From contig JACQBC010000034.1 of assembly GCA_016194635.1 (NCBI GenBank), positions 1 through 64,000 on the forward strand: DNA of 64,000 nt, in the 5' to 3' direction. The notes under the pieces were generated by a model. It searched no databases, had not been told where the DNA came from, and saw nothing but the letters and a program-made list of their open reading frames with translations. Positions 31 to 9,192 of this stretch are shown piece after piece (within the stretch, counting starts at the first letter, position 1; every line of letters starts with the position of its first letter). Origin of the DNA: Gammaproteobacteria bacterium. Lineage in GTDB: Bacteria > Pseudomonadota > Gammaproteobacteria > UBA6429 > Thiohalophilaceae. Both the position numbers and the translations under genes were made by a program.

Positions 31-312
31 TCATGCCACATTGGTCAATTCATAGTCTTGCGGTGATCGCAGGCCAAGGGTGGAATGTCGACGTTTCACA
101 TTGTAATACCGGTCTATGTAGTCTGTCGTGATTTTTTCTGCATGCCAGCGCGTCGCAAATCGCTCACCATGAATGGTTTCGACCTTGTAGCTGTGGTTCC
201 CACTCTCCATGGCCGCGTTATCGTAGCAATCACCACGCTTGCTCATGCTACAGATAAGCCCGTGCTCGTACAGCAAGACCAGATAGTCAGCAGAGCAGTA
301 GCGGCAAGCCAC
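31..312 (-). pseudogene. IS3-family transposase OrfB, C-terminal fragment
   Basis: Only the last ~90 residues of an IS3 OrfB integrase (normally ~280) remain. Visible are the segment SMSKRGDCYDNAAMES, which carries the last acidic residue of the DD(35)E triad, and the terminal YNVKRRHSTLGLRSPQDYE motif typical of IS3/IS150-type transposases. The two catalytic Asp residues and the HTH_21 region are lost. The GTG at the 5' end is not a native start, since it lies at the deletion scar. Residues after MES (GNHSYKVE) also differ from the usual FFHSLKVE. Non-functional. Confidence 0.9.
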
Positions 313-577
313 GGGGGCGGTTTTTTAATATTTCAATATCGGTCAGGGCTCGCTTGAGTTCACGTTTGAGCCGGCCAATTTCTTCCAGCTCAGGCAACTG
401 ATGGCCTTTGCCGGGAAAGGCCTGGGATCCAGCCTCGCGCTGTTCTTTTTCCCAGCGCCGCAGCATGGTGGGGTTAATCTTCAATATCCGGGCCGCTTCG
501 GTGTAGCCTTGCTGGAGGCCAAGCGCCACCGCTTCCCGTTTGAATTCGGGGGTATACTTCTTTCTGTTCTGTTTCAT
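287..577 (-). pseudogene. IS3-family transposase OrfA (DNA-binding part of a dead IS)
   Basis: This 96-residue product starts at an ATG and has the IS3 OrfA pattern: a helix-turn-helix of the HTH_8 type (KKYTPEFKREAVAL near the N terminus, then AARILKINPTMLRRW), followed by a leucine-zipper-like region ending in LKRELKRALTDIEILKN. The last ten residues (after ILKN) are out of register with normal OrfA C termini because of the deletion that removed the start of OrfB. The protein may be expressed and bind the IS ends, but there is no catalytic partner in this copy. Overlaps the OrfB remnant by 26 bases. Confidence 0.85.
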
Positions 578-1729: not shown

Positions 1730-3025
1730 ATGAAAGTATGTGTACAAGGTCTCTGGCACCTTGGGTCTGTGACTGCAGCAAGCCTTGCGGCGGTGGGGCA
1801 TAAAGTTGTTGGTCTGGATTTCGATGCAGTAATAATCCAAGGATTGCAGGCAGGTAAACCGCCTATTTTCGAACCCGGCTTGGAAGATATGATTAGGGAA
1901 GGGTTAGATTCAGGAAAATTGGAATTTACGAAAAGCCTTGATAACCTACCAGATGACATCGAAATTCTCTGGGTAGCCTATGACACGCCAGTCAATGATG
2001 ATGATGTGGCAGATGTTGATTTTGTTGTTTCTCAATTAGAGAAGACGCTGCCATACCTGGGCGCTAATGCGATTGTGTTGGTATCTTCGCAAATGCCAGT
2101 CGGGTCAATTCGGCGGATAGAGGCAATTGCAGACAGGTGCTGCCCTGAAAAGGCGTTGAGTTTTGCCTGTTCGCCAGAAAATCTACGGCTGGGTAAGGCA
2201 TTGTATGTGTTTCTAAAACCTGATCGTGTCGTTGTTGGTGTGCGAAATACACAGGACAAAGAACGAATTGGGTGCTTGCTTCAGTCAATTACTGATCGGA
2301 TCGAATGGATGTCGGTTGAGTCGGCGGAAATGACTAAACATGCAATCAATGCCTTTCTGGCTACTTCAGTGGTGTTTGCGAACGAAATTGCATCGGTTTG
2401 CGAAATGGTTGGTGCGGACGCAAAGGAAGTAGAGCGTGGCTTGAAATCGGAACAGCGTATTGGCCCTAAAGCGTATTTATCACCTGGCGGTGCATTTGCT
2501 GGTGGGACGTTAGCGCGTGATATCGAGTTTTTAAAAGTTGTTAGTAGTGAACACAAGCTCTCCATCCCATTACTTGAATCAGTCAAGACGAGTAACGATC
2601 AACATAAGAGATGGGTGCGCCGTAAATTAAATACGCTTTTTTCCTGTTTGCATGGGGTGACGGTTGTTGTATGGGGGCTTACGTATAAACCCGGTACGGA
2701 TACCCTGCGCCGTTCTCTTGCCGTTGAATTGTGTAACTGGCTTCTTGAACAAGGTGCCAAGGTCAGAGTGCATGATCCAGCCGTTAAAGTGTTGCCACCC
2801 GAATGGCATGGAATTGTGACGCGCTTTGATGCGGAGACGGAGGCATTGGTAGGGGCGCAAGTATTATTGGTAGGAACTGAATGGCCAAAATATAAGGAAG
2901 TCTCGATAGAACATATTTCCGGATTGGTTCCAGACCTTGTGGTACTTGATCCAAATCGTTTTTTGTCAACATTGGGTTCGATAACGCAACTTCGCTATTT
3001 TGCAGTTGGAACCCCTTCCTGTTAG
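1730..3025 (+). CDS. UDP-glucose/GDP-mannose dehydrogenase family protein lacking the catalytic Cys
   Basis: 431 residues with the three-domain layout of nucleotide-sugar 6-dehydrogenases: N-terminal Rossmann (start MKVCVQGLWHLG, the usual GxGYVG altered to GLWHLG), central helical dimer domain, and C-terminal NAD/sugar domain (VVVWGLTYKPGTDTLRRS). Lys203 and Asn207 of the TKHAINA segment match the conserved catalytic Lys/Asn. The loop that should read GGSCFPKD is AGGTLARD, so the Cys nucleophile is Thr260. Without Cys the two-step oxidation to a uronic acid through a thioester should not occur, so a different reaction is inferred, such as a single oxidation or a redox-neutral step. SD-like AGGGG precedes the ATG. 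A true Ugd is present at 38010. Confidence 0.88.
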   Translation: MKVCVQGLWHLGSVTAASLAAVGHKVVGLDFDAVIIQGLQAGKPPIFEPGLEDMIREGLDSGKLEFTKSLDNLPDDIEILWVAYDTPVNDDDVADVDFVVSQLEKTLPYLGANAIVLVSSQMPVGSIRRIEAIADRCCPEKALSFACSPENLRLGKALYVFLKPDRVVVGVRNTQDKERIGCLLQSITDRIEWMSVESAEMTKHAINAFLATSVVFANEIASVCEMVGADAKEVERGLKSEQRIGPKAYLSPGGAFAGGTLARDIEFLKVVSSEHKLSIPLLESVKTSNDQHKRWVRRKLNTLFSCLHGVTVVVWGLTYKPGTDTLRRSLAVELCNWLLEQGAKVRVHDPAVKVLPPEWHGIVTRFDAETEALVGAQVLLVGTEWPKYKEVSIEHISGLVPDLVVLDPNRFLSTLGSITQLRYFAVGTPSC

Positions 3026-3036
3026 AGGATAGAACA

Positions 3037-3912
3037 ATGCTTTTATCATTGCGTGGAAAAGTTGCGATCATCACGGGTGCTAACCAGGGGCTCGGGCTTG
3101 AGATTGCGCGAAAGTACATTAGTTCTGGTGCATCAATCGTTATATGTGCGAGGAATAACGACCTATTACAAAAAGCACGACTAGAGTTGTCAGGTGATCT
3201 TATTACAGATCAGCTTGTTGAGGCGAAATCTATTGATGTGTCTGATTCAGATAGCGTGGATTATTTAGTCGAAGCAGTTTTACAGCAGTTTGGTCACATC
3301 GACATTCTAGTCAATAACGCGGGTATTTATGGCCCAATGGGACCAATCGAAACATTAGATTGGACGCAATGGATTAAAACAATTGAGATTAATGTGTTTG
3401 GTTCAATATTAATGTGTAAAGCTGTGTTGCCAGTTATGAAGAAACAGCAAAAAGGCAAAATCATTCAAATATCTGGCGGAGGTGCCACTAACCCAATGCC
3501 TAATATTAGTGCCTATGCTGTTTCAAAAGCTGCAATCGCGCGTTTCGCCGAAACACTCGCAGAAGAAGTACGTGAATATCATATTGACGTCAACGCAATT
3601 GCTCCCGGTGCATTGAATACGCGTATGCTAGATGAGGTGCTTACTGCTGGCCCAGATAAAGTTGGCCGAGCATTTTTTGATAGATCGATCAAACAGAAAG
3701 TATCAGGCGGCGCAGGTTTCAGCCACGGCGGGGATCTTGCTGTATTTTTGGCATCGGATCTTAGCAATGGAATTACTGGTAAATTGATTAGTGCCGTATG
3801 GGATAATTGGAAGCATTGGCCAGAACATCTAGCAGAGTTGAGCTCGAGCGATGCCTATACTTTACGACGTATTGCTGGCCGAGATCGTGGTTTTGCGTGG
3901 GGAGATAAATGA
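3037..3912 (+). CDS. Classical short-chain dehydrogenase/reductase
   Basis: 291 residues. The cofactor motif is TGANQGLG (13-20), NNAG lies near residue 93, Ser is in the SGGG stretch, and Tyr160-x-x-x-Lys164 (YAVSK) completes the active site. This is a classical SDR (single Rossmann fold, NAD(P)(H)-dependent), slightly longer than the ~250-residue norm because of a C-terminal tail with several aromatic residues (WDNWKHW). It lies in a sugar-nucleotide operon, ATGA-overlapping the next gene, so a ketosugar reductase or alcohol dehydrogenase acting on the pathway sugar is likely. An unrelated substrate cannot be excluded. Ribosome site AGAGGA upstream of the ATG. Confidence 0.9.
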   Translation: MLLSLRGKVAIITGANQGLGLEIARKYISSGASIVICARNNDLLQKARLELSGDLITDQLVEAKSIDVSDSDSVDYLVEAVLQQFGHIDILVNNAGIYGPMGPIETLDWTQWIKTIEINVFGSILMCKAVLPVMKKQQKGKIIQISGGGATNPMPNISAYAVSKAAIARFAETLAEEVREYHIDVNAIAPGALNTRMLDEVLTAGPDKVGRAFFDRSIKQKVSGGAGFSHGGDLAVFLASDLSNGITGKLISAVWDNWKHWPEHLAELSSSDAYTLRRIAGRDRGFAWGDK

Positions 3913-4901
3913 GTTTAAAAATTGGAATCGTCGGTTGTGGCCTGATTGGTCAGAAACGAGCCAAGGCTTTGGGTATAGGTCGATTGGTTGCCTGTGCAGA
4001 TATAAATGTGAATCGGGCAAAGATGCTTGCAGAAAATAGTGGAGCGAAAGTGTTTACCAACTGGAAAGGTCTTTTAGCACTGCCGGAAGTTGAAATAGTT
4101 ATTATTGCTACTTTGCATGATTCATTAGCAGAGATCACCTTAGCGGCAATTGAAGCAGGTAAGCAAGTACTGGTGGAAAAGCCTGCAGCACGTAATCCTG
4201 CTGAGTTGGAGCCTGTGATAGCAGCAGCCAAAAAGCATAGCGTGAAGGTACGTGTTGGCTTTAATCACCGATATCACCGCGCTTTTCGTAAGGCACGGGA
4301 GTTATTTGAAGCTGATAAATTAGGGGATTTAATGTTTATTCGTGCTCGTTATGGTCATGGTGGTCGAGTCGGTTATGATAAAGAATGGCGCGCTGAGCCT
4401 GATTTATCAGGTGGCGGGGAGTTAATCGATCAAGGACCACACTTGATTGATCTTTCACGCTGGTTTCTGGGTGAGTTTACCGATATCGAGGGTTTTGCAC
4501 ATACCTATTACTGGGATATGCCGGTAGACGATAATGGTTTTATGTTACTTAAAACAGCAAGGCGACAAGTTGCATTCTTGCATGCGAGTTGTACTGAATG
4601 GAAGAATTTATTTTCCATGGAAATTTATGGGCGCAATGCAAAACTGGAAATATCCGGCCTAGGGGGTAGTTATGGGATTGAGCGACTTACGTATTATAAA
4701 ATGTTACCCGAAATGGGACCGCCAGAGACCACGACCTGGGAATATCCGATGGGAGATGATTCCTGGGCGGTGGAACTCGCAGAGTTTTATGATGATATTC
4801 GTTTGAATCGAATACCTTCAGCCGGATTGAACGATGCCTACGAAGCGTTAAAAGTGATTGATCGTGTATATAAGGTGTCTGGCTATGATCATTGCCCGTA
4901 G
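3909..4901 (+). CDS. Gfo/Idh/MocA-family sugar oxidoreductase
   Basis: 330 residues with an N-terminal Rossmann motif GCGLIG (9-14), the family hallmark Glu90-Lys91-Pro92 and a C-terminal alpha/beta substrate domain with the GGGELIDQGPHLIDL segment that carries the conserved catalytic-region His. These enzymes oxidise or reduce hydroxyl/keto groups on sugars or NDP-sugars with NAD(P). The start codon overlaps the previous stop (ATGA) and the 3' end overlaps the HddA-like kinase by 17 bases, so translation is coupled. In this setting it probably oxidises C3 or another ring position of a heptose-type sugar (inference). Confidence 0.92.
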   Translation: MSLKIGIVGCGLIGQKRAKALGIGRLVACADINVNRAKMLAENSGAKVFTNWKGLLALPEVEIVIIATLHDSLAEITLAAIEAGKQVLVEKPAARNPAELEPVIAAAKKHSVKVRVGFNHRYHRAFRKARELFEADKLGDLMFIRARYGHGGRVGYDKEWRAEPDLSGGGELIDQGPHLIDLSRWFLGEFTDIEGFAHTYYWDMPVDDNGFMLLKTARRQVAFLHASCTEWKNLFSMEIYGRNAKLEISGLGGSYGIERLTYYKMLPEMGPPETTTWEYPMGDDSWAVELAEFYDDIRLNRIPSAGLNDAYEALKVIDRVYKVSGYDHCP

Positions 4902-5865
4902 TCCATTGCGTATTACTCTGGGTGGGGGTGGTACTGATTTACCTTCTTATTATCGTGAGCACGAAGGTTTCTTAATTGCAGCGGCAATGAATAAATATGT
5001 ATATGTGACGATAATGCGTCCGTTTACTGAAGGGATATACCTAAAATATTCTGAGTTGGAGCATGTGGCTACCGTGGAAGAAATACGGCATCAGATTATC
5101 CGTGAGGCACTCAGAATGCAAAATCTACGAACACCACAAATTGAAATTACAACATTGGCGGATATTCCTGCTGGTACAGGTTTGGGTTCATCCGGTAGTT
5201 TTACGACCGCCTTGCTCAAGGCATTGTATGCCCATCGTCGACAATTGATACACCCCAATGAGTTGGCAGAGCTAGCCTGTCACATTGAGATAGACCGGCT
5301 CGGTGAACCAATTGGTAAACAGGACCAATACATTGCCGCTTATGGGGGATTGACATGCTTTACTTTCCATAAGGATGACAGTGTCACTGCGGTGCCACTT
5401 AGAATTTCCATGGACACTATGTTTGATCTTGAGGACAACACGTTATTATTTTTTACTGGCTACTCGCGTAGTGCTAGTATTATTCTCAAAGATCAAAACA
5501 CCCGCACCAAGAATAGTGATGACGATATGTTGAAAAATCTACATTTCGTCAAGGAACTTGGCTATAGCAGCAAAGAAGCGTTGGAGACAGGTAATACACT
5601 ACGGTTTGGTGAATTGATGCATGACCACTGGGAACATAAAAAACGACGTTCTGGTGGTATGAGCAATCCCAGGATTGATGAATGGTACAAACTTGGCATG
5701 CAAAACGGAGCTGTTGGCGGTAAGTTAGTCGGTGCCGGTGGAGGAGGGTTCTTGATGTTTTATGCTTCTGATCGTAATAAATTACGTCATGCTATGAGTA
5801 AGGCTGGACTGGAGGAAGTTCGTTTTAGTTTTGATTTTGAAGGTACCAAGGCAGTATTTTCGTGA
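4885..5865 (+). CDS. hddA: GHMP kinase, D-glycero-D-manno-heptose 7-phosphate 1-kinase-like (HddA)
   Basis: 326 residues from the ATG at 4885, chosen because AAGGTG lies just upstream and MIIARSPLRITLGGGGTDLP is the normal HddA N terminus. An upstream TTG at 4858 would add nine unlikely residues. GHMP motifs: PLRITLGGGGTDLPSYY near the N terminus, the ATP loop PAGTGLGSSGSF around residues 95-106, and the C-terminal GAGGGGFLMFY near 280-290. The family phosphorylates C1 of heptose 7-phosphate with alpha configuration in the GDP-heptose route. Neighbouring HddC-, GmhA- and GmhB-like genes complete that route, which supports the call over L-fucose or galactokinase alternatives. Confidence 0.88.
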   Translation: MIIARSPLRITLGGGGTDLPSYYREHEGFLIAAAMNKYVYVTIMRPFTEGIYLKYSELEHVATVEEIRHQIIREALRMQNLRTPQIEITTLADIPAGTGLGSSGSFTTALLKALYAHRRQLIHPNELAELACHIEIDRLGEPIGKQDQYIAAYGGLTCFTFHKDDSVTAVPLRISMDTMFDLEDNTLLFFTGYSRSASIILKDQNTRTKNSDDDMLKNLHFVKELGYSSKEALETGNTLRFGELMHDHWEHKKRRSGGMSNPRIDEWYKLGMQNGAVGGKLVGAGGGGFLMFYASDRNKLRHAMSKAGLEEVRFSFDFEGTKAVFS

Positions 5866-6569
5866 GTTTACCGGTTGCTATTCTGGCGGGTGGCCTGGCA
5901 ACCCGTTTACATCCTATTACTGAGAAAATTCCTAAGGCGATAGTGGATGTAGCAGGTAAAGCTTTTATTATTCGTCAGCTTGACTATTTGCGGCAGCAAG
6001 GGATTGTAAGAGTCGTATTATGTTTGGGTTATTTAGGTGAACAAGTCGAAGCAGTGGTCGGTAATGGTTCGGCTTTTGGCTTAGACGTGTGTTATTCATG
6101 GGATGGCCCCCGCTTACTGGGCACAGGTGGTGCGTTGAGACACGCCTTGCCGTTATTGGCGGAACATTTTTTTGTTTTTTATGGGGATTCATACTTACCC
6201 ATAAATTTCCAGGCAGTTGAACATGATTTTTTCACGAAAGGTAAACCCGCGTTAATGACAGTGCTAAAAAATAGTAACCGATGGGATAAGAGTAATGCAG
6301 TATATCGTGATGGTTACGTTGTCGAATATGACAAACGGACACCTAGGGCTGAAATGATGTACATTGATTATGGACTTGGAATACTTGCCGCTTCGGTTTT
6401 GGACAAATTACCCGTGAATGAACCCTTTGACTTAGCAGATATTTATCACGGGCTATCAACATCAGGTTTGTTGGCGGGTTACGAGGTATTTGATCGATTT
6501 TACGAAATTGGTTCCCATAATGGGTTAAAAGAAACGAGTGAGTATTTTAGAAAGGAGGAAAAAGAGTGA
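5862..6569 (+). CDS. hddC: Sugar-1-phosphate nucleotidyltransferase (HddC-like guanylyltransferase)
   Basis: 235 residues, the usual length for HddC. The N-terminal NTP-binding signature is LAGGLATRLHPITEKIPKAI, and the metal/sugar region is YGDSYLP (Asp109). The GTG start overlaps the kinase stop (GTGA), giving tight coupling. In the GDP-D-glycero-alpha-D-manno-heptose route the enzyme joins GMP to heptose 1-phosphate. Nucleotide preference cannot be read directly from the sequence. It is assigned to GTP because of its HddA/GmhA/GmhB neighbours. A second, distinct nucleotidyltransferase lies at 20815. Confidence 0.85.
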   Translation: MSLPVAILAGGLATRLHPITEKIPKAIVDVAGKAFIIRQLDYLRQQGIVRVVLCLGYLGEQVEAVVGNGSAFGLDVCYSWDGPRLLGTGGALRHALPLLAEHFFVFYGDSYLPINFQAVEHDFFTKGKPALMTVLKNSNRWDKSNAVYRDGYVVEYDKRTPRAEMMYIDYGLGILAASVLDKLPVNEPFDLADIYHGLSTSGLLAGYEVFDRFYEIGSHNGLKETSEYFRKEEKE

Positions 6570-7165
6570 ATTACACTAAACAACATATCAGTGAGGCTGT
6601 CGAGATTCTGCAGAAAATTAATATTGATGCCATCGAAAAAATGGCGGATCTCGTAGCTGGAATTAAGCAAAGTGGTGGTCGAATATTCTTTCTAGGTGTC
6701 GGCGGCAGTGCAGGAAATTGCTCGCATGCTGTGAATGATTTCCGCAAGATCGTTGGTATTGAATCTTATGCCCCTACGGATAATGTATCCGAATTGACCG
6801 CGCGCACCAATGATGAGGGTTGGGCTACAGTATTTGTAGAGTGGTTGAAAACCAGCAAGCTGTGCGCAAAAGATGCTGTATTTGTCTTTTCCGTTGGTGG
6901 TGGAAACCTTGAGAAGAATATTAGTCCGAATCTCGTATTGGCGTTACAACATGCGAAGACGGTTGGTGCTAAGATAACTGGCGTAGTCGGGCGGGATGGT
7001 GGTTATACCGCAAAGGTTGCAGATGCATGTTTGATTGTGCCGACGGTTAATTTGGAGACCATCACTCCACATTCCGAAGCTTTCCAAGCTGTTGTTTGGC
7101 ACTTACTGGTATCTCATCCTAAACTTAAGGCAAATCAGACCAAATGGGAATTAGCAGTTAAATAA
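6566..7165 (+). CDS. gmhA: SIS-domain phosphosugar isomerase (GmhA-like)
   Basis: 199 residues, one SIS domain. The phosphosugar loop FLGVGGSAGNCSHAVNDF (about 42-59) matches the GmhA pattern with Ser/Asn/His ligands, and a second region FSVGGGNLEKNISPN binds phosphate. GmhA converts sedoheptulose 7-phosphate to D-glycero-D-manno-heptose 7-phosphate, the first committed step for the following kinase/phosphatase/nucleotidyltransferase. GTG start overlapping the preceding TGA, with a strong AAAGGAGG ribosome site eight bases upstream. Followed one base later by the rpiA pseudogene. Confidence 0.9.
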   Translation: MNYTKQHISEAVEILQKINIDAIEKMADLVAGIKQSGGRIFFLGVGGSAGNCSHAVNDFRKIVGIESYAPTDNVSELTARTNDEGWATVFVEWLKTSKLCAKDAVFVFSVGGGNLEKNISPNLVLALQHAKTVGAKITGVVGRDGGYTAKVADACLIVPTVNLETITPHSEAFQAVVWHLLVSHPKLKANQTKWELAVK

Positions 7166-7166
7166 T

Positions 7167-7871
7167 ATGAACATGATGCAAGATGAATTGAAACTAGCCG
7201 TGACTCGCGCTCCCTATGAATATGTCAATGCTGGTATTATCAGGGTAGGTACAGGTACCACCGCAAATCATTTTATCGACAAACTGAGTAAAATTAAGCA
7301 CAAAATCGATGGTGCTGTTGCCGGTTCAGCGGCGACTGCGCAACGTTTAAAAAGCTATGGTATCCATGTGTTTGACCTGAATAGTATTAGCAAATTATAA
7401 ATTTATATTGATGGTGCATACGAAATCACGAACTATCTATATTTGCTCAAGAGTGGCGGCGCTGCGTTAACTCGCGAATAAATTGTAGCAGCCTGCAGTA
7501 AGAAATTCGTGTGTATTGCCGATTCGAGTACGCTGGTAGATATAATGAGAAAGTTCCCTCTGCCCGTAGAAGTAGTCCCAATCGAGCAAAGCTACGTGGT
7601 ACGTGAACTAATCAAACTAAGTGGCCACCCGAAACTCAGAGCATGTTTTATTATAGACAACGGTAATATTATTCTTGATGTGCCTAGTCTCAAAATTTAC
7701 AACCCGACCAAGCTAGGAGCTAAAATTGACAACATTGCTGGTGTCGTTACCAACAGATTGTTTGCCATGCGCCCGACGGACATATTGTTACTGGGTTCTT
7801 CGGCGGGGTTAAAACTATTACTGTATAATGACAGATATAACTATCTAAGGTGTGGATGTGATTGTTATTAG
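7167..7871 (+). pseudogene. rpiA: Ribose-5-phosphate isomerase A, broken by two in-frame TAA codons
   Basis: One continuous reading frame aligns to RpiA from its start (MMQDELKLAVTRAPYEYV) to its end but is cut by TAA at 7398-7400, just before the IYIDGAYE segment, and TAA at 7479-7481, where LTREK should continue. Both halves keep the family motifs: GTGTTANHFID, then [24 protein letters not shown] and DNGNIILDV. The catalytic pair DGADE reads DGAYE, so an active-site Asp is also lost, and the C terminus drifts (LRCGCDCY). RpiA interconverts ribulose 5-P and ribose 5-P. Its place between GmhA and GmhB suggests it once fed pentose phosphates into this heptose operon. Confidence 0.93.
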
Positions 7872-7940: not shown

Positions 7941-8489
7941 ATGATAAAGCGGCGGGCGGTTTTTCTTGATCGAGATGGAGTATTGAATAGATCTATCGTG
8001 CGTGAGGGTAGACCATATCCTCCTTCGAGTGTTACAGAAGTTGAGATTCTACCTGGCGCGGTTAAGGCTATGCAATGCTTAAAGGATGCAGGATTTGTTT
8101 TGATTGTTGTCAGTAATCAACCGGATGTAGCCAGAGGAATAACCTCTATGAAAATCGTTGAGTCAATCAATGCCTATCTATTGAAATCTCTACCAGTGGA
8201 TCGCTTTATCATGTGTTACCATGATAGCGAAGATAATTGTGATTGCCGTAAACCTAAACCAGGCATGCTATTTTCTGGTGCTAAAGAATTTAATATTGAT
8301 ATGGAATTAAGTTATATGGTAGGTGATCGTTGGCGTGATATTGAAGCCGGAATCAATGCGAAATGTAAGACTATTTTTATTGATTATAGGTATGATGAAA
8401 AACAGCCAGAATCAGTAGATTATAAGGTAGGCTCACTTTTAGACGCGGTGGCTATTATTACGAATAGGAGCGTGTATGAACAAGATTGA
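7941..8489 (+). CDS. gmhB: HAD-family D,D-heptose bisphosphate phosphatase (GmhB-like)
   Basis: 182 residues, normal GmhB size. The HAD nucleophile motif LDRDGVLN carries Asp10 and Asp12, the second motif is VVSNQP, and the last motif YMVGDRWRDIEAG supplies the Mg ligands. A Zn site of the GmhB/HisB type is visible: Cys92, His94, Cys100 and Cys102. It removes the C7 phosphate from heptose 1,7-bisphosphate. Its 3' end overlaps the transaldolase by 14 bases. The gap of about 70 bases upstream follows the rpiA pseudogene, so expression may now depend on read-through from further upstream. Confidence 0.92.
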   Translation: MIKRRAVFLDRDGVLNRSIVREGRPYPPSSVTEVEILPGAVKAMQCLKDAGFVLIVVSNQPDVARGITSMKIVESINAYLLKSLPVDRFIMCYHDSEDNCDCRKPKPGMLFSGAKEFNIDMELSYMVGDRWRDIEAGINAKCKTIFIDYRYDEKQPESVDYKVGSLLDAVAIITNRSVYEQD

Positions 8490-9192
8490 GGATTTAAAAG
8501 TCAAAATATTTGCTGATGGTGCAGATAAGTCAGGAATGCTCGAGATGTATGCCAAGCCCTTTATTAAGGGCCTCACTACGAACCCTACGTTAATGCGTAA
8601 AGTAGGTATTACTGATTATAAAGCTTTTGCAAAGGAAATTCTCTCTGAAATCAAAGATAAGCCACTTTCTTTCGAAGTATTTTCCGATGATTTTAATGAT
8701 ATGGAGAGGCAAGCGTTGGAGATTGCTGGTTGGGGTGAAAATGTCTATGTAAAAATTCCTGTAACTAATACAAAGAAAGAACCGTGTTATACCCTGGTAA
8801 AAAAATTGGCAGCGAAAAACGTCAAGCTTAACGTCACTGCTTTGATGACACTTGCTCAGGTAGGTGACGTAGTTGCAGCTCTAAACCCGAATGTGCCTAG
8901 CTATGTATCTGTATTTGCAGGACGCATAGCCGACACGGGGCGTGATCCAGTACCATTAATGGCTAGGGCAGTTGAACTTCTTAAAGTTGCTCCTGCCGCT
9001 GAATTAATTTGGGCCAGCCCACGCGAATTGTTAAATATATTTCAGGCAGATGCAATTGGTTGCCAGGTAATTACTGTAACCAATGATGTTCTTAAAAAAC
9101 TATCGTTAGTTGGTTTTGATTTGGATGAGTATTCACTCGATACGGTAAAAATGTTTTATACCGATGCAATAGCAGCAGGTTTTAAGCTCTAA
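8476..9192 (+). CDS. Transaldolase-family aldolase inside a heptose operon
   Basis: 238 residues, a single TIM-barrel aldolase of the short transaldolase/fructose-6-phosphate aldolase type. Schiff-base Lys93 sits in VYVKIPVTN, and the early strand KGLTTNPTLM and the later GRIADTGRDP and IWASPRE segments match the family. Transaldolase makes sedoheptulose 7-phosphate from fructose 6-P and erythrose 4-P, which is the GmhA substrate, so a precursor-supply role is likely. Alternatively it could add or remove a C3 unit on a branched sugar. AGGAG ribosome site; start lies inside the GmhB gene. Followed by a terminator at 9299, so it ends this operon. Confidence 0.88.
   Translation: MNKIEDLKVKIFADGADKSGMLEMYAKPFIKGLTTNPTLMRKVGITDYKAFAKEILSEIKDKPLSFEVFSDDFNDMERQALEIAGWGENVYVKIPVTNTKKEPCYTLVKKLAAKNVKLNVTALMTLAQVGDVVAALNPNVPSYVSVFAGRIADTGRDPVPLMARAVELLKVAPAAELIWASPRELLNIFQADAIGCQVITVTNDVLKKLSLVGFDLDEYSLDTVKMFYTDAIAAGFKL

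Follow-up and report, generated by a model that had tools for sequence, protein, structure and literature searches.

Nucleotide-sugar dehydrogenases are the textbook case of a double oxidation in a single active site, achieved through a thioester on a catalytic Cys residue. The locus described here raises the question of what such a protein does once this Cys is gone. It lies in a 64,000-nucleotide stretch of a gammaproteobacterial genome (GCA_016194635.1; the window in what follows), where the gene at positions 1730 to 3025 of the forward strand encodes a Cys-less nucleotide-sugar dehydrogenase homologue of 431 amino acid residues, referred to here as UGDH-T. With a natural lineage of such proteins, one can ask what residues decide between two-electron and four-electron oxidation. 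The automatic annotation of its members as nucleotide sugar dehydrogenases implies a uronic acid product, which they probably do not make.

UGDH-T scores 287 bits against TIGR03026 (nucleotide sugar dehydrogenase; cut-off, 189.8) and matches the N-terminal (PF03721), central (PF00984), and C-terminal (PF03720) domains of the family, all above the curated cut-offs. The AlphaFold2 model, produced from a 48-row alignment of proteins from the window and the fetched loci (leaving aside a row that came from a plasmid record), has a mean pLDDT of 94.6 and a pTM of 0.87. Its best solved relative is 3gg2 (Z score of 43.8, 419 residues, 2.1 Å), followed among the best solved relatives by 4a7p, 2y0d, and 2y0e; all of these are UDP-glucose dehydrogenases. 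By domain composition and fold, UGDH-T is a member of the UDPG/MGDP dehydrogenase superfamily. The predicted structure agrees with the sequence-only reading of the window, which considered the fold intact, and points to a full-length UDP-glucose dehydrogenase fold.

The active site is different. Alignments with the solved UDP-glucose dehydrogenases and with 20 Cys-type relatives both place the GSCFPKD motif opposite GGT(260)LARD of UGDH-T. The altered nucleophile loop, AGGTLARD in place of GGSCFPKD, is encoded by codons 257 to 264 (positions 2498 to 2521, forward strand), with the Thr260 codon at 2507 to 2509; the earlier reading had the sequence, position, and register of this replacement right. 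Both alignments also bear out its second observation, a changed first Rossmann motif: the loop reads G7-L-W9-H10-L-G12 (codons 7 to 12, positions 1748 to 1765, forward strand) instead of GxGYVG. Changes beyond those noted earlier include Gln121 in place of the catalytic-water Thr118 (codon 121, positions 2090 to 2092, forward strand), Asp85 in place of the glycine of VGTP, PENLRLG in place of PEFLxEG, and, within the Rossmann loop, His10 in place of Tyr10. Lys203, Asn207, Asp264, and Glu150 are kept.

The main alignment compares the window UGDH-T and 85 relatives (86 rows, 36 to 77% identical) with the 20 Cys-type proteins. Position 260 is occupied by Thr in 85 rows and by Ser in one, the viral sequence L113. 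Gln121, Glu150, Asn151, Lys203, His204, Asn207, and Asp264 are found in every row, so that the retention of Lys203 and Asn207, noted for the single protein, extends to all its aligned relatives. His10 and Asp85 are likewise found in all 86 rows and Trp9 in 84 (the divergent viral sequences L113 and L114 have Gly9), although these three figures are partly biased by the use of WHLGSVTA or LWVA[YI]DTP in the scan for relatives. Eight clade members that lack the exact WHLGSVTA string still show GxWHLG. The motif is also present in the sequences from Lawsonia and Rhizobium jaguaris and in the three Bradyrhizobium-like sequences (of four) that were read at this site, all of them found by protein similarity. 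Thr260, Asn151, and His204 formed no part of any pattern used to collect these loci. The Cys-type rows have Gly at position 9, Tyr at 10, Gly or Pro at 85, Thr at 121, Glu at 150, Phe or Arg at 151, Lys at 203, mostly Tyr at 204, Asn at 207, Cys at 260, and Asp at 264.

Eighteen residues are reported as invariant across 229 NDP-sugar dehydrogenases, the catalytic Cys among them (PMC4794789). The UGDH-T clade breaks four of these: Gly9 (Trp), Thr118 (Gln), Gly257 (mostly Ala), and Cys260 (Thr). Tyr10, which is 98% conserved and has been assigned a role in thioester hydrolysis (PMC4794789), is replaced by His throughout the clade. The clade keeps the NAD contacts Gly7, Gly12, Asp29 (Asp30 here), Thr83 (Thr86 here), and Arg327, the first-oxidation residues Asp264, Lys204 (203 here), and Asn208 (207 here), and the intersubunit sugar contact Arg244 (Arg243 here); the diphosphate contact Lys320 is mostly kept. 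Among the residues expected of a four-electron NDP-sugar 6-dehydrogenase, Lys204, Asn208, Asp264, and Glu141 (reference numbering) are present in 86 of 86 rows each, whereas Cys260, Tyr10, and Thr118 are absent and Gly9 persists only in L113 and L114. By these residues UGDH-T falls outside the four-electron enzymes. The clade retains the residues assigned to the first hydride transfer and has lost those assigned to the thioester. In human UGDH, the C276A mutant does not complete the reaction from UDP-glucose (PMC3184952). The Phe and Pro residues that flank the nucleophile are Leu and Ala in the clade, a change that could leave space for one more carbon atom.

These replacements are not signs of decay. 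Thr260 is encoded by ACG in 39 rows, ACA in 20, ACT in 13, and ACC in 13; the use of all four Thr codons indicates that it is the amino acid that is conserved. Eight close pairs were compared by the Nei-Gojobori method, and six of them give dN/dS values between 0.085 and 0.12 (dS approaches saturation in several), by which measure UGDH-T is under purifying selection. An intact gene had been assumed from the start, and the open frame of 431 codons and a dN/dS of about 0.1 agree with that; together with the Thr260 codons in the relatives, they rule out a pseudogene.

When 398 genomes of the same phylum were searched with a degenerate DNA pattern for AGGT[LF]ARD, a single genuine further member turned up (L026/L028), which is 45% identical to UGDH-T and carries GMWHLG and AGGTLARD. 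Bare matches to this DNA pattern in three further genomes proved to be frame accidents, not relatives. A scan of one genome per species yielded 130 related stretches, 80 of which were retained; additional members are found on viral contigs, and Rhizobium and Lawsonia intracellularis carry others on plasmids. The relatives of UGDH-T span at least ten phyla. In a tree of 101 rows, built by a quick method and including some long rows, a long branch (1.61 changes per column; SH-aLRT, 100) separates the 29 clade members sampled, together with three divergent viral relatives, from all other rows; this branch sits inside the UDP-glucose dehydrogenase half of the family. Cys is found in all 69 comparison rows outside the lineage (one gene accounts for two of them, and one row is poorly aligned). 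In the viral relatives L113 and L175 the motifs read GxGH and GGSLQRD, with Ser at site 260; the divergent L179 reads GPHLSRD, with His at this site. All three carry Asp and Gln where the clade has Asp85 and Gln121, so Cys was probably lost, and these two residues gained, before Trp9 arose. His10 also occurs in two Cys-type rows and so is not, by itself, tied to the loss of Cys.

Alignments and tree alike depict the Cys-less lineage of the UDP-glucose dehydrogenase family as real and old. Family alignment had been proposed as a check on whether Thr260 and the Rossmann motif are shared by a clade or are random changes in singletons; with Thr260 in 85 of 86 rows, GxWHLG as a clade feature across many phyla, and a conserved operon around it, UGDH-T clearly belongs to a large clade. 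The same three lines, fixation in the clade, purifying selection, and the conserved operon, make a new reaction a better reading than loss of activity, as the sequence-only reading had argued; that the reaction is new is still something we infer.

The operon consists of nine genes, all on the forward strand in the window. Neighbour clustering and gene maps give the fixed order: an NAD-dependent epimerase/dehydratase (756 to 1727, found at 80 of 86 loci), UGDH-T, an SDR oxidoreductase (3037 to 3912, 76 of 86 loci), a Gfo/Idh/MocA oxidoreductase (3909 to 4901, recognized by domain match, tblastn, and comparison with solved structures), an HddA-like GHMP kinase (4867 to 5865), a MurU/HddC-like sugar-1-phosphate nucleotidyltransferase (5862 to 6569), a GmhA-related SIS-domain isomerase-like protein (6566 to 7165), a GmhB-like HAD-IIIA phosphatase (7941 to 8489), and a transaldolase (8476 to 9192; TIGR02134, 332.8 bits against a cut-off of 281.95). 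Among loci with full flanks (at least 7 kb upstream and 8.5 kb downstream), 21 of 29 contain all nine genes by tblastn, and strand and gene order are almost always shared. The set recurs in Rhizobium jaguaris and in four genomes from a single genus (that of G090), probably Bradyrhizobium. In L028, the most divergent bacterial member, the epimerase gene adjoins UGDH-T, and the kinase and transferase genes are 7 kb away. Of the nine proteins, UGDH-T ranks with the least conserved. GT2, GtrA, and methyltransferase genes are found near the cassette at part of the loci, and in the window it is followed by an ABC exporter of the Wzm/Wzt type, so the product is probably a surface glycan sugar. The cassette points to an undescribed sugar carried by rhizobia, Lawsonia, and many uncultured bacteria; a search of open-licence papers found no published account of either the Cys-less lineage or the nine-gene set.

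What this sugar might be is suggested by the neighbours of UGDH-T. The cassette kinase is closest, among solved structures, to HddA (3k85, 168 bits); the nucleotidyltransferase is closest to MurU and HddC, the HAD protein to GmhB, and the SIS protein to GmhA. This arrangement matches the GDP-D-glycero-D-manno-heptose pathway (GmhA, HddA, GmhB, HddC), with counterparts of its enzymes sharing one operon here. However, the cassette proteins miss the HddA, HddC, GmhA, and GmhB equivalog or subfamily cut-offs: the kinase scores 170.6 bits against 600 for HddA, the nucleotidyltransferase 81.7 against 300 for HddC, and the SIS protein 45.7 against 209.45 for GmhA. The SIS protein also has Asp and Gln in place of the GmhA Glu and His residues, and the cassette adds a transaldolase and four oxidoreductase-type genes to the known pathway. 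With these low scores and the Asp/Gln pair, a heptose 7-phosphate precursor is uncertain. The host genome encodes a separate GmhA (207.6 bits, with the Glu and His), a separate transaldolase, and three Cys-type paralogues of UGDH-T; the cassette copies are not the housekeeping ones and, on these comparisons, are additional, specialized enzymes. The SIS protein has fixed motifs of its own, HAVNDFRK and PTDNVSELTAR, and is possibly an isomerase for another ketose phosphate. Sequence comparison of the SDR, Gfo/Idh, and epimerase proteins with solved structures does not single out their substrates. An NDP-heptose-like sugar made by the same cassette is the likeliest candidate for the UGDH-T substrate, with a chance of being right that falls noticeably short of even.

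The reading that we prefer is that UGDH-T is an active NAD-linked nucleotide-sugar dehydrogenase that stops halfway through the UDP-glucose dehydrogenase reaction, after the first oxidation, and most likely acts on the NDP-heptose-like sugar of its cassette; this reading could as easily be right as wrong. The transaldolase, SIS isomerase, HddA-like kinase, GmhB-like phosphatase, and nucleotidyltransferase would supply this sugar. With NAD held in the Rossmann domain, a water bound to Asp264, together with Lys203 and Asn207, would remove the proton of an exocyclic hydroxyl, and the hydride would pass to NAD. Having neither a Cys nucleophile nor a Tyr10-type residue for thioester hydrolysis, the enzyme would stop at the carbonyl after two electrons, its product being a keto or an aldehyde sugar. 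Two-electron chemistry is the simplest reading of intact first-hydride residues and missing thioester residues, and we consider it evenly balanced between true and false. In an NDP-heptose-like sugar the oxidized group would be the secondary C6 hydroxyl; a ketone would then be the only possible product, the thioester machinery would be useless, and the loss of Cys would need no further explanation. This heptose C6 ketone, as a specific product, is nevertheless doubtful. The keto sugar would next be modified by the epimerase, SDR, and Gfo/Idh proteins and end up in a surface glycan. Trp9 counts against the proposal in that, placed in the glycine loop, it might disturb NAD binding. In a wider picture, the lineage represents a two-electron nucleotide-sugar dehydrogenase that contributes one step to a pathway of nine enzymes. 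This pathway would have passed between many bacterial phyla and would yield a nucleotide-activated higher sugar, a heptose or something longer, destined for surface glycans; the picture has slightly less than an even chance of being correct.

The same residues could serve other chemistries. An epimerase would oxidize and then re-reduce the same carbon with tightly held NAD(H) and no net redox change, which fits the retention of the first-oxidation residues and the loss of those for the second step; Trp9-His10, in the loop next to NAD, could conceivably hold the cofactor. However, the solved relatives listed are dehydrogenases and the cassette already includes an epimerase-family protein, which makes this reading improbable. 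Equally unlikely is an enzyme that still removes four electrons, with Thr260, perhaps activated by His10, forming a hemiacetal and an ester where the Cys enzymes form a thioester. The site is Thr or Ser in almost every member of the lineage, with Ser in the viral L113 and L175, and the human C276S mutant builds up a covalent adduct (PMC3184952). That mutant stalls without turnover, though, the divergent L179 has His at the site, and Tyr10 and Thr118 are replaced as well.

The direction of the reaction is not legible from sequence. UGDH-T might work mainly in reverse, reducing a keto or aldehyde nucleotide sugar supplied by another cassette enzyme, as a two-electron active site is reversible and the cassette encodes three other NAD(P)-type oxidoreductases. 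Asp30, whose counterpart in UGDH contacts the adenosine ribose (PMC4794789), is kept in 83 of 85 readable rows and suggests NAD over NADP; a reductase seems quite improbable. A catalytically dead sugar-nucleotide-binding scaffold or regulator would account for the loss of both the Cys and the second Rossmann glycine, but not for invariant Asp264, Lys203, and Asn207 in 86 rows, for the new residues Asp85, Gln121, Asn151, and His204 being equally fixed, or for the low dN/dS, and we regard it as very improbable indeed.

Returning to a two-electron dehydrogenase, its closest known counterparts are the UDP-glucose 6-dehydrogenases (BceC, 2y0e; Porphyromonas gingivalis, 3gg2; TuaD type), with which UGDH-T shares the full-length three-domain fold (30 to 32% identity), the active-site Lys, Asn, Asp, and Glu residues, and the Asp and Arg of the NAD site. 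Unlike them, it lacks the catalytic Cys, has His for Tyr10, Gln for Thr118, Trp for the second Rossmann Gly, and PENL for PEFL, and belongs to a fixed cassette of another kind. 6-Phosphogluconate and 3-hydroxyisobutyrate dehydrogenases, which perform two-electron chemistry with a Lys/Asn pair, are distant fold matches (Z score of about 18.6), but they have no third nucleotide-binding domain and their substrate is not a nucleotide sugar. The 11-gene operon proposed for bradyrhizose in photosynthetic Bradyrhizobium (PMC4743980) is likewise a multigene sugar modification system and has a dTDP-glucose-dehydratase-like gene. A link to bradyrhizose was rejected: among 266 genomes of the genus (probably Bradyrhizobium), UGDH-T is found in 4 and photosynthetic reaction-centre genes in 27, with an overlap of 0.

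Several loci depart from the standard arrangement. On Lawsonia intracellularis plasmid 3 (L115, 2751 to 19300) the cassette is rearranged, with the SIS, HAD, and transaldolase genes before UGDH-T and the epimerase gene about 10 kb upstream. The Gemmata loci L088 and L090 contain only the epimerase and UGDH-T genes, beside genes for a GT2 and a large membrane protein; none of the remaining seven cassette genes lies within the flank. In the IMG/VR contig L113 (8179 to 13030), the transaldolase, epimerase, Ser-type Cys-less dehydrogenase, HddA-like kinase, a piece of the transferase, and the SIS gene occur together. The dehydrogenase frame is open for 275 residues there and a terminase-like ORF is nearby; this is possibly a phage-borne cassette.

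In the window itself, a decayed ribose-5-phosphate isomerase A gene (7173 to 7871, forward strand) lies between the SIS and HAD genes. It has in-frame stops, its open 3' part matches PF06026 with 70.7 bits, and tblastn finds no match to it at any of the 86 related loci. Transposase pieces with rve and HTH_Tnp_1 domains (31 to 577, reverse strand; IS3-like) are found at the very start of the contig, just upstream of the cassette, and may mark its acquisition or simply an assembly break. The SDR protein (3037 to 3912) has a fixed SGGGAT segment, and its catalytic Ser appears to be one residue off the usual register to YxxxK.
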